From Burkholderiaceae bacterium (GTDB lineage Bacteria; Pseudomonadota; Gammaproteobacteria; Burkholderiales; Burkholderiaceae_B), in the NCBI GenBank assembly GCA_017983955.1, contig JAGOAJ010000002.1:107700-171699 (forward strand): DNA of 64,000 bases, given 5' to 3'. Below, piece by piece: positions 56,521-62,822 of the stretch; position 1 is the first letter of the stretch, and each line of letters starts with the position of its first letter. The notes below the pieces were generated by a model. It had not been told where the DNA came from and searched no databases. It was given only the letters and a program-made list of their open reading frames with translations. Position numbers and translations under genes: made by a program.

Positions 56521-57393
56521 ATGCAGAAAAAACGTCGTAATTTCCTAGCCGCCGCTGCGCTCTCAGTATCACTGTTTAGTGTAATGGGCAGCGCCCATGC
56601 GATAGAAGAGTTGAATGTAGGCCTTATTCCCTCGGAAGATTCGCGGGCCATGATAGCAAGCAGTCAAGCGATGATGGACATGCTGTCCAAATCCCTGGGC
56701 ATGAAAGTCAATGCCTTCGTTGCCGCCGATTACAACGGAGTCATAGAGGCGCTAAGGTCCAAGCGGCTTGATGTCGCCTATCTTGGCCCATTCTCTTACG
56801 TGTTGGGTGCAACAGTGGCTGATATCGAAGCCTTCGCTGTTGCTGAAACGAAGAAAGCTGGCCGTACTTACTATCATAGTGTTGTCATCGCCCGCAAGGA
56901 TAGTGGAATAAATACCGTAGAAGACCTCAAGGGAAAGTCCTTTGCGTTCGTGGATCCCAGTTCTACCTCAGGACATTTATTTCCCAAGGCTGGCTTGATG
57001 AAAGCAGGCTTTGACACGGATAAGGATTTTGGCAGGGTGTTGTTCTCCGGCTCTCACGACTCAAATGCGGTAGCTGTGCAGAATGGGAAAATACAGGCGG
57101 CTGTTATCGCAGACCGCATTCTTGACGCGGCAATCTCCAAAGGGTTGGCCAAGCGCGAGGATCTGACCATTGTATGGAGATCAGACCCCATACCTGAGTC
57201 GCCCACCGTATGGCGCAAGGACTTGCCTGATGACTTGAAGAAAAGAATTCAGGCTGCCTTTCTAGATGTGAAAGATATTCCTTGGTCCGATCAGGGCATG
57301 CTGAATGGCTTTCATCCAACTACGGACAGTGCTTATGACGTCATTCGCGACACTGCAAAGGTGCTTAACCTTGACCTGAGGAAAATGAAATGA
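56521..57393 (+). CDS. phnD: Phosphonate ABC substrate-binding protein PhnD
   Basis: This 290-residue protein has a Sec signal (AHA cleavage near residue 27) and the PhnD fold, with LNVGLIPSEDSRAMIASSQ at the mature start and DPSSTSGHLFPKAGLMKAGFD, a phosphonate-binding loop. The ATG at 56521 has GGAG 6-9 bases upstream and is preferred to the one at 56509. It overlaps phnC by four bases. It is expected to bind a phosphonate such as 2-hydroxyethyl-, 2-aminoethyl- or phosphonoacetate; the binding partner cannot be told. Confidence 0.93.
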   Translation: MQKKRRNFLAAAALSVSLFSVMGSAHAIEELNVGLIPSEDSRAMIASSQAMMDMLSKSLGMKVNAFVAADYNGVIEALRSKRLDVAYLGPFSYVLGATVADIEAFAVAETKKAGRTYYHSVVIARKDSGINTVEDLKGKSFAFVDPSSTSGHLFPKAGLMKAGFDTDKDFGRVLFSGSHDSNAVAVQNGKIQAAVIADRILDAAISKGLAKREDLTIVWRSDPIPESPTVWRKDLPDDLKKRIQAAFLDVKDIPWSDQGMLNGFHPTTDSAYDVIRDTAKVLNLDLRKMK

Positions 57394-58205
57394 TCAGGAT
57401 CAGGGGCTTAACAAAACGTTACGGGGATTTTGAGGCTCTGAAGAACGTGAGCCTGGATGTTAAAAAGGGCGAATTCCTGGTTATTTTGGGTGCTTCAGGT
57501 GCGGGTAAATCCACGCTATTACGGTGTATTAATCGCCTGGCTATCCCAACTTCTGGAACCATAGTGCTGGATGGCAAAGAAGTCGTCAGCGATCGGGCCG
57601 GCTTGCGTCAATTACGCTGCGATGTCGCCATGATATTTCAGCATTACAACGTGGTGCCTCGTTTATCGGCGTTGAAAAACGTCATTACAGGCCGCTTGGG
57701 TTCTGTCCCATCGGTATTGTCGTGGTTCCAGCTTTTCCCGGCCAAAGACATAGAAATCGCCAGGGAATGCCTGCGTCGGGTTGATCTTGAGCACAAGGCC
57801 CAGGATCGCACCGACACCTTGTCAGGAGGGCAGAAGCAGCGCGTAGGTATTGCCCGCGCGTTGGCCCAGCATCCGAAAGTCATACTGGCTGACGAGCCCG
57901 TTGCCAGCCTGGATCCAAAAACCTCTCGCAACGTGTTGCGCTACTTGAAGCAGGCAAGCGACGAGTTTGGCATCACTGTGGTCTGTAATTTGCACCAAGT
58001 AGATTACGCCCGAGAATTTGGTGAGCGCATCATAGGCGTGGCCGACGGGATGGTGGTCTTTGAGGGCGGGCCTAGCGAGTTGACCGAGGAAGTGTTGCAA
58101 AAAATCTACCCTGGGGGGCTGGAGGAAGAGCCTTGCATACCGGCTGCTTTGCCAAATAGCCATGGTTTTCATGTCATGCCGCAATTGGCTCTGGAGGAAT
58201 CATGA
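57390..58205 (+). CDS. phnC: Phosphonate ABC ATPase PhnC
   Basis: This 271-residue ATPase shows Walker A GASGAGKST, signature LSGGQKQRV and Walker B VILADEPVASLDP. It is a standard PhnC. It overlaps phnD and phnE by four bases each, so the three are translationally coupled. Together they import phosphonates. Confidence 0.94.
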   Translation: MIRIRGLTKRYGDFEALKNVSLDVKKGEFLVILGASGAGKSTLLRCINRLAIPTSGTIVLDGKEVVSDRAGLRQLRCDVAMIFQHYNVVPRLSALKNVITGRLGSVPSVLSWFQLFPAKDIEIARECLRRVDLEHKAQDRTDTLSGGQKQRVGIARALAQHPKVILADEPVASLDPKTSRNVLRYLKQASDEFGITVVCNLHQVDYAREFGERIIGVADGMVVFEGGPSELTEEVLQKIYPGGLEEEPCIPAALPNSHGFHVMPQLALEES

Positions 58206-61386: not shown

Positions 61387-62822
61387 TTCAAGACCATCTT
61401 GCCTTTCGGGCCGAGGTGTTACGCATCGCAGGGGAGACGGTTGTTTGTGATAGAACACTTGATGTGTTTAATCCTTTTGACAACACACGGGTAGGCACTG
61501 TTCCAATGGCGACCGTCGAGCATGTGCGTGAGGCATTTCGGGTTGCCCATAGCTATCGCCCGACCCTTAGCCGCTACGAGCGTTCTGCTATTTTGAATCG
61601 GGCAGCAAGCCTGTTGCGTGCCCGAACTAACGAGGCGTCCGATCTTATTACGCTAGAGTCAGGGCTTTGTAAAAAGGACTCGATATACGAGATAGGGCGC
61701 GTGGCTGATGTGTTGGTGTTTGGCGCCAACGAGGCCTTGCGTGATGATGGTGAAGTGTTTTCCTGCGATTTGACTCCGCACGGGAAACGGCGCAAGGTGC
61801 TCACCACTCGGGAGCCTCTACTGGGTGTCATTACTGCGATCACGCCATTTAATCACCCGATGAATCAGGTGGCTCATAAGGTAGTGCCAAGCATCGCGTC
61901 CAATAATCGGATGGTGCTTAAACCCTCAGAGAAAGTCCCATTGTCGGCCTACTATCTAGCAAATATTTTATATGAAGCCGGTTTGCCTCCGGAAATGTTT
62001 CAGGTCATCACCGGCGACCCGCGTGAAATCGCCGACGAGTTGATCACCAACCCACACGTCGAACTGATTTCGTTTACCGGTGGGGTCGAAATCGGCAAGT
62101 ATATTGCGAGCAAGGCAGGCTATCGGCGCATAGTGCTGGAGCTGGGCGGCAATGATCCGCTGATAGTGATGGAGGATGCGGATCTGGATAAGGCATCTGA
62201 TCTTGCAGTACTTGGCTCGTACAAAAACTCAGGGCAGCGGTGTACGGCGGTAAAACGCATGCTGGTCCATGAGTCGGTAGCCGCGCAGTTTACAGAGTTG
62301 CTGGTTGAAAAGACGCGACTGTGGGTCTGGGGCGATCCTAGTGATCCCGATGTGGACATGGGTACGGTTATAGATCAGGCTGCCGCGACCTTGTTCGAAC
62401 AGCGTGTTCAAGAGGCTATTGCACAAGGGGCACGCCTATTAATGGGCAACATACGAGATGGCGCTCAGTACTCCCCTACAGTGCTTGATCGCGTACGTCC
62501 CGAGATGGCTTTGGTGCTGCAGGAAAGTTTTGGCCCGATTTCACCCGTTATTACTTTTACCGATCTGGATGACGCTATCCGGATTTCGAACGGTACGGCA
62601 TTTGGCCTGTCGTCGGGCATATGCACCAATCGGGCGGATTACATTACACGTCTGGTTAATGAGCTCCATGTCGGTAACGTGAATCTATGGGAAGTACCTG
62701 GCTATCGGATTGAGCTCACGCCTTTTGGAGGGATCAAGGATTCAGGCCTGGGCTACAAAGAAGGTGTGCAGGAAGCCTTGAAGTCCTTTACCAACTGCAA
62801 AACTTTCAGCTTTCCTTGGTAA
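61383..62822 (+). CDS. phnY: Phosphonoacetaldehyde dehydrogenase PhnY
   Basis: This 479-residue aldehyde dehydrogenase has the catalytic Cys287 in NSGQRCTAVKRM and the ELGGNDP glutamate motif. It matches PhnY, which oxidises phosphonoacetaldehyde to phosphonoacetate with NAD+. Phosphonoacetate then goes to PhnA. It overlaps the alcohol dehydrogenase by four bases, so the two act as successive oxidation steps. No phnW (2-aminoethylphosphonate transaminase) is in the operon. Confidence 0.92.
   Translation: MIQDHLAFRAEVLRIAGETVVCDRTLDVFNPFDNTRVGTVPMATVEHVREAFRVAHSYRPTLSRYERSAILNRAASLLRARTNEASDLITLESGLCKKDSIYEIGRVADVLVFGANEALRDDGEVFSCDLTPHGKRRKVLTTREPLLGVITAITPFNHPMNQVAHKVVPSIASNNRMVLKPSEKVPLSAYYLANILYEAGLPPEMFQVITGDPREIADELITNPHVELISFTGGVEIGKYIASKAGYRRIVLELGGNDPLIVMEDADLDKASDLAVLGSYKNSGQRCTAVKRMLVHESVAAQFTELLVEKTRLWVWGDPSDPDVDMGTVIDQAAATLFEQRVQEAIAQGARLLMGNIRDGAQYSPTVLDRVRPEMALVLQESFGPISPVITFTDLDDAIRISNGTAFGLSSGICTNRADYITRLVNELHVGNVNLWEVPGYRIELTPFGGIKDSGLGYKEGVQEALKSFTNCKTFSFPW

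Follow-up and report, generated by a model that had tools for sequence, protein, structure and literature searches.

Described pathways and the window locus

The PhnWAY pathway for 2-aminoethylphosphonate (2-AEP) is described in Sinorhizobium meliloti (PMC10574752). Other phosphonates are channelled into phosphonoacetaldehyde (PAA) by PbfA and PbfB/C/D, with PbfF, in clusters with PhnX or PhnY/PhnA (PMC8154272; PMC10590968; PMC12366243). The substrates of PbfA and PbfB/C/D are aminophosphonates, and for PbfF oxidation of 2-hydroxyethylphosphonate (HEP) was considered, tested and excluded (PMC12366243). The iron-type dehydrogenases PhpC and FomC, assigned to the HEPD subfamily cd08182, carry the label HEP dehydrogenase or PAA reductase in PMC5125639, and the sulfoacetaldehyde reductase BkTauF (PDB 6jko) also oxidises isethionate, the sulfonate analogue of HEP, with NAD+ (PMC6616044). 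Here, an operon is described from a 64,000-nucleotide stretch of a Burkholderiaceae genome (contig JAGOAJ010000002.1, positions 107,700 to 171,699; hereafter the window), in which an iron-type alcohol dehydrogenase gene stands between genes for PhnA and PhnY. With a probability of about 0.78, we consider this operon to be a dedicated catabolic unit for HEP, a variant of the PhnY/PhnA pathway that would be entered through the dehydrogenase.

The locus resembles PhnWAY in its PhnY and PhnA steps, both encoded by genes scoring over cut-off, but it lacks PhnW, and entry by an alcohol dehydrogenase would involve no amino group or pyridoxal phosphate step. With PhpC and FomC it shares an iron-type dehydrogenase for which interconversion of PAA and HEP is predicted; however, their context is biosynthetic (FomC belongs, we presume, to a biosynthetic cluster), whereas the window dehydrogenase stands beside an importer and PAA-degrading enzymes. 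To BkTauF the likeness would be one of chemistry, on a sulfonate analogue, with substrate residues kept or changed from Phe to Tyr; unlike the window enzyme with its phosphonate context, BkTauF has Gln at one metal ligand, lies in taurine gene clusters and acts on a sulfonate (PMC6616044).

Gene content of the operon

Genes were taken from open reading frame (ORF) calls, and scores are given in bits as score/NCBIfam curated cut-off:

55413..56294, minus strand: LysR-type regulator (phn_lysR-like), TIGR03339 304.8, below the cut-off of 341.1
56329..56375, no strand: candidate LysR operator/promoter, with TATAG at 56329-56333 and TTTGAATTGGACAAAT at 56360-56375
56509..57393, plus strand: phnD, phosphonate ABC transporter substrate-binding protein, TIGR03431 284.1/261.1
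57390..58205, plus strand: phnC, transporter ATPase, TIGR02315 322.4/266.1
58202..59020, plus strand: phnE, transporter permease, TIGR01097 306.1/216.7
58996..60252 (start may be 59020), plus strand: phnA, phosphonoacetate hydrolase, TIGR02335 609.8/407.55
60283..61386, plus strand: iron-type alcohol dehydrogenase ('PsrA'), proposed HEP dehydrogenase, TIGR03405 505.8/423.7
61383..62822, plus strand: phnY, phosphonoacetaldehyde dehydrogenase, TIGR03250 875.3/635.65

The six co-directional genes all exceed their cut-offs, and the LysR gene is divergent. Overlaps of 4 bases join phnD to phnC, phnC to phnE and the dehydrogenase gene to phnY; phnE and phnA overlap by 25 bases if the first ATG of phnA is used and by 1 base with the ATG at 59020, and a gap of 30 bases separates phnA from the dehydrogenase gene. 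An earlier note on this DNA had listed the same genes, from the divergent LysR gene through phnD-C-E-A and the iron-type alcohol dehydrogenase gene to phnY, with overlaps of 1-4 bases or short gaps, a gene content that both the ORFs and NCBIfam bear out; its start at 56521 is in frame within phnD and is the second ATG, the first lying at 56509. Structural matches agree with these names: the closest PDB relatives of PhnD are PtxB and PhnD-type binding proteins, PhnA matches the phosphonoacetate hydrolase 1ei6 at 602.3 bits, and PhnY matches 4i3t, titled 'Aldehyde dehydrogenase (NAD+)' and presumably the S. meliloti PhnY, at 588 bits. The same order, with the divergent LysR gene, is found in HGW-Betaproteobacteria-3 (L063) and Variovorax sp. 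dw_308 (L064), and a further locus (L057) has phnD-C-E-E-A-dehydrogenase-phnY with no LysR call. This recurrence confirms that the arrangement is beyond chance.

Predicted pathway

Oxidation of HEP to PAA is thermodynamically unfavourable. In the proposed pathway, PhnDCE would import HEP, the dehydrogenase would oxidise it with NAD(P)+ to PAA, PhnY would convert PAA with NAD+ to phosphonoacetate, pulling the first step forward, and PhnA would release phosphate and acetate; in related bacteria, PhnX would stand in place of PhnY/PhnA. We infer the substrate and direction of the dehydrogenase from sequence, and the HEP reading is supported by gene content, family membership, the absence of the PAA sources tested for, the recurrence of the module with exchanged partners, and conserved residues. 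The earlier note had likewise proposed that the dehydrogenase replaces PhnW in an operon degrading HEP, which agrees with the lack of a PhnW over cut-off, the importer and PhnY/PhnA within the operon, and the recurrence of the module. It had added that the intermediate stays with the coupled enzymes throughout; this part is not supported, as the overlapping genes suggest coupled expression and not channelling.

The true substrate might instead be phosphonoacetate, or PAA arriving ready-made, with the dehydrogenase as an accessory for a side alcohol. PhnA alone converts phosphonoacetate to phosphate and acetate in Pseudomonas fluorescens 23F (PMC10574752), but this scheme leaves the presence of PhnY in the operon unexplained, as it does a dehydrogenase beside PhnX in 19 of the 56 core loci defined below, and we hold it to be very improbable.

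Other phosphonate genes of the host

The host genome is a draft of 3.32 Mb in 62 contigs, 94.5% complete, so that about 5.5% may be missing. Within it no protein exceeds the cut-off for PhnW (best 32.2 vs 400.8 bits), PhnX, PepM or the PbfD-like FAD oxidoreductase TIGR03364, which leaves PhnY/PhnA with no other tested source of PAA, PbfA not having been searched for. A search for phnW and phnX had been suggested by the earlier note, which counted a co-regulated phnW elsewhere, together with a dehydrogenase inactive on HEP, as evidence against its proposal; the 94.5% complete draft shows no such phnW. The dehydrogenase is the only enzyme recognised in the operon that would be able to make PAA. 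Neither PepM nor phosphonopyruvate decarboxylase, as a biosynthesis cluster would have, was found in positions 49001-64000 of the window. The two genome matches to PepM are a phosphonopyruvate hydrolase and PrpB (methylisocitrate lyase); the former, at 271 bits, was considered as a sign of biosynthesis and rejected on account of its identity.

Two further phosphonate regions were seen in the host. One (L149; G000:C56) encodes the C-P lyase protein PhnJ with PhnD and PhnN alongside. In the other (L148:8126-10300; G000:C23), an aminotransferase and a phosphonopyruvate hydrolase (559.2 of 374.4 bits) lie behind transporter genes, whose proteins resemble the aminoethylphosphonate type at scores below cut-off; this pair probably forms a phosphonoalanine (PalAB) route. 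The host would thus seem to use phosphonates by at least three routes.

The dehydrogenase

The match to TIGR03405, a family described by NCBIfam only as 'iron-containing alcohol dehydrogenase PsrA', spans positions 1-354 of the 355 in the profile, and the origin of the symbol PsrA was not found. The AlphaFold2 model is confident, with a predicted local distance difference test score (pLDDT) of 92.2 and a predicted TM-score (pTM) of 0.90. The best solved match of the dehydrogenase by profile is 6jko (TM 0.86), which Foldseek places fourth by E-value. The metal ligands D194, H198, H263 and H277 (Asp-His-His-His, as looked for in a HEP dehydrogenase or PAA reductase of the PhpC/FomC kind) are present in 55/55 core proteins, the set behind the core counts given below (fragment L106 left out).

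In BkTauF, almost no activity remains after the T257A or F265A replacement and about 28% after F252A, Tyr being a natural replacement of F265 (PMC6616044). These residues, F252, T257 and F265, align with F254, T259 and Y267 of the window dehydrogenase, so that the substrate residues are retained with one Phe-to-Tyr change. Conservation across the core is nearly complete, at 55/55 for F254, 54/55 for T259 and 55/55 for Y267, with Lys or Arg at 258 in 55/55. The PepM-linked proteins L054, L112 and L113 likewise have Thr at 259, Tyr at 267 and a basic residue at 258. The 12 outgroup proteins are mixed: five combine T259 with either Phe or Tyr at 267 and with a basic or some other residue at 258, or share still more, and these residues are therefore not unique to the core clade.

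Among 10 dehydrogenases encoded beside a TIGR03364 oxidoreductase and PhnX, Met occupies position 254 in eight and Gln position 258 in seven, and these enzymes may have a different function. In seven loci (L116, L117, L118, L120, L124, L125 and L132), a distant dehydrogenase, 33-37% identical, lies between phosphonate transporter genes and the TIGR03364 oxidoreductase with PhnX; it has Met/Gln at 254/258 and perhaps another function.

Partner genes in related bacteria

At the level of the order, 14 of the 399 genomes sampled hold a protein above the TIGR03405 cut-off; the class gives 2 of 369 and the genus 1 of 2, the host genome being included in each figure. Named genomes yielded a sample of at least 80 loci. 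Together with 13 further regions and the window these make 94 stretches, whose ORFs of 100 amino acids or longer were clustered and turned into profiles for scoring the stretches themselves; NCBIfam supplied the names of cluster representatives. For PhnW, the profile applied to the loci derives from the two sequences of L052 and L053. The core set comprises 56 distinct loci (duplicate L055 dropped) with a dehydrogenase at least 43% identical, and partners were counted within about 10 kb.

Among the core loci listed, PhnX is near 19, PhnA with PhnY near 18 and PhnY alone near one. PhnW is near two (L052 and L053, about 5 kb away) and PepM near none; LysR is found near 46, and PhnD or one of two major facilitator superfamily (MFS) types near 44. 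When only loci with both flanks of at least 5 kb are considered (n = 43), 16 have PhnX, 15 have PhnA with PhnY and 12 have neither. The comparison of neighbourhoods that the earlier note had suggested thus finds the dehydrogenase module again in other genomes, with PhnX or with PhnA/PhnY. Plasmid records hold nine further carriers of the dehydrogenase, named mostly PsrA by NCBI and 'phosphonoacetaldehyde reductase' in two Vibrio records; five were opened:

L143: phnDCE-psrA-phnX
L144: psrA-phnA-phnY
L145: phnX-LysR-psrA
L146: LysR-psrA-phnCE, no PAA consumer in view
L147: phnA-dehydrogenase-phnY

PhnX and PhnY/PhnA are unrelated enzymes with PAA as their common substrate, PhnX acting on PAA and not on phosphonoacetate. 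In a tree of 85 dehydrogenases (a quick method with midpoint root and support from the SH-like approximate likelihood ratio test, SH-aLRT, only, PhpC and FomC themselves not being included), one clade of 68 rows (SH-aLRT 99) holds both the PhnX and the PhnA/PhnY contexts, and this exchange within a single dehydrogenase clade points to PAA as the shared substrate. At least three switches between PhnX and PhnA/PhnY are needed over the 37 rows with either, or two without the long-branched L104, and six over 51 rows when the FAD-oxidoreductase and PepM contexts are added. A larger number of exchanges (4 label changes for PhnX, 10 for PhnA/PhnY) was rejected, most of the changes being against rows without a consumer. 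The earlier statement that the family is also biosynthetic was right: four PepM-linked members were found, of which three (L054, L112 and L113) branch outside the catabolic clade and L102 inside it, on a long branch and with unsure placement.

The two presumed sources of PAA are also separated around PhnX. Of 41 PhnX loci in the 399 genomes of the order, 27 have PhnW within 10 kb, four have the dehydrogenase, 10 have neither and none has both. PhnW is in the flank of 0/20 dehydrogenase-linked PhnX loci (19 core loci and L104, some flanks cut short) vs 27/37 of the order's remaining PhnX loci (PhnW at 10 kb or less); the Fisher value of 2.6e-8 is a guide only, as related loci are taken as independent and flanks are mixed with a 10 kb distance. 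Eleven of the 20 dehydrogenase-linked PhnX loci are in genomes with PhnW, and nine of these 11 (hand count) have a further PhnX no more than 10 kb from PhnW. Two catabolic routes running in parallel would require such separate PhnX copies, one for PhnW and one for the dehydrogenase.

These distributions bear on the possibility that the dehydrogenase works in reverse, from PAA to HEP, salvaging 2-AEP for biosynthesis or venting the toxic aldehyde. The listing of the PhpC/FomC subfamily as HEP dehydrogenase or PAA reductase (PMC5125639) is compatible with this, and earlier work noted that 53% of phpC genomes lack pepM and proposed that phpC inside 2-AEP catabolic operons makes HEP together with phnW (PMC9381506). 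However, a reverse role fits poorly with a host genome that has no PhnW, PepM or TIGR03364 over cut-off, with the rarity of PhnW near core loci (2/56), with an operon that itself holds an importer and PAA destroyers, and with the separate PhnX copies in 9 of 11 genomes, and we regard it as improbable.

HEP esters as possible substrates

MFS, tripartite ATP-independent periplasmic (TRAP) or oligopeptide-type ABC transporter genes adjoin the dehydrogenase in related bacteria. The imported substrate could be an ester of HEP (glycan, lipid or phosphodiester-linked) or another hydroxyalkylphosphonate, with free HEP only as an intermediate. Marine dissolved organic matter contains HEP in the form of polysaccharide esters (PMC5649143), and phosphoesterases are encoded in or beside some clusters: Metallophos and Phosphodiest in L065, Metallophos in L147, PHP in L092 and L144 and, at 25.7 bits under a cut-off of 26.4, in L145, PAN with Phosphodiest in L061, and phospholipase C in L143. 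The loci checked were chosen by eye, so that these cases give no frequency, and the window operon has no phosphoesterase other than PhnA. Esters as the imported form are a tentative and less likely alternative; the idea overlaps with HEP catabolism, and the odds of the readings are not additive to 1.

Calcineurin-type, NPP-type and PHP phosphoesterases were seen by oligopeptide-type ABC transporters at L065:15492-17602, L147:15788-16588, L092:2498-3406, L144:470-1378 and L145:14550-15458, a combination for which HEP-ester uptake is possible. A PAN-domain protein with a phosphodiesterase/sulfatase-like part lies in a PhnX-type operon (L061:13210-14658); its cluster is also found in L060 and L086 (only the L061 protein was scanned).

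Evidence weighing against HEP catabolism

Several observations weigh against the operon being a catabolic unit for HEP. Searching with the single sequence ranks two methanol dehydrogenases slightly above BkTauF, and together with the fourth place of 6jko in Foldseek this means that the kinship to BkTauF is not exclusive. Because PhpC and FomC are listed as PAA reductases or HEP dehydrogenases of biosynthetic clusters, the natural direction of the reaction could be the reverse. Partner switches are few (two to three), the absence of PAA sources holds for the families searched (PhnW, PepM and TIGR03364, without PbfA) and for the part of the genome present in the draft, and the host carries a C-P lyase PhnJ (485.8 bits), another possible route for HEP. 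In addition, 18/56 core loci have no PAA consumer nearby, 12 of these with both flanks of at least 5 kb. PhnW is present somewhere in 36/62 dehydrogenase genomes, and the two closest operons, L063 and L064, both come from such hosts; the module therefore does not depend on the absence of PhnW, nor is this absence a significant predictor of a PAA consumer close by (p = 0.19 by Fisher test; the 43 loci whose flanks both reach 5 kb). L090, L099 and L101 consist of LysR, dehydrogenase and transporter, and L105 of dehydrogenase and transporter with no LysR call, all four without a PAA consumer nearby; their genomes carry PhnW, and the dehydrogenase may there feed a pathway elsewhere. The PhnW-less genomes of L062, L072, L085 and L100 have neither PhnX nor PhnA/PhnY locally, although the contig of L062 carries PhnX at a distance of about 19 kb and L100 is cut short.

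Significance

Neither a HEP dehydrogenase acting in catabolism nor an assay of one was recognised in the open-access literature, most subscription journals being outside this coverage, and the available part of PMC10574752 holds no mention of HEP. The dehydrogenase would be a new entry branch to the known PhnY/PhnA pathway. Beyond this operon, chances seem slightly better than even that PhnW-independent mineralisation of HEP or its esters is widespread, built from a LysR regulator with its operator, exchangeable importers and PAA destroyers, one dehydrogenase clade and, in some lineages, ester hydrolases. HEP in produce stems from ethephon. Monitoring of pesticide metabolites in fruit and vegetables covers HEP (PMC7278595), which bacteria that have C-P lyase convert to ethylene (PMC5649143). 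If the HEP reading is correct, the hydrolytic route would be a second fate of HEP without ethylene, yielding phosphate with acetate or acetaldehyde. Surveys scoring the dehydrogenase as phpC, which PMC9381506 classes as a 'production' gene, may in that case list degraders among the producers, and the curated family TIGR03405 would gain a function and the PAA-feeding enzymes an extra branch.

Regulation and flanking features

The gaps between LysR and phnD of the window, L063 and L064 share TATAG and TTTGAATTGGAYARAT, the remainder of the gap having diverged. The window holds a single copy of the 11-base core of this candidate operator, against a mean of 0.00 over 100 shuffles, and among 150 loci the 17-base form was found in L064, L100 and L063 (as well as in L055, which duplicates L063). 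L100 is a Reyranella bin in which the dehydrogenase adjoins LysR; the 16-mer is also upstream of its dehydrogenase match, where automatic ORFs overlap the operator-like site. With a matrix from three seed sites, scored against 2000 background segments over 38 gaps, L100, L089, L090 and L144 stand out, with L076/L078 weakly so, and none of the PhnX-type gaps reaches p 0.05. The operator-like site precedes phnD in the window, L063 and L064, and the dehydrogenase gene in L100 and, in weaker form, L089, L090 and L144, a recurrence that counts in favour of the HEP reading. HEP or a product is probably the signal for the LysR protein, with the conserved TTTGAATTGGAYARAT site as its likely point of action.

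No Pho box was seen before phnD. When 3 mismatches at most are allowed, the window gives 11 hits vs 5.25 expected, a number reached by 2/100 shuffles, and the single hit close to the operon is internal to phnD. Sigma-70 promoters are at chance level in the window (6 found vs 6.1 expected), and 9 terminators were found vs 6.0 expected. Directly downstream of the operon lies a peptide deformylase gene (63009-63542), and the next open frame, transporter-like by eye, exits the end of the window.

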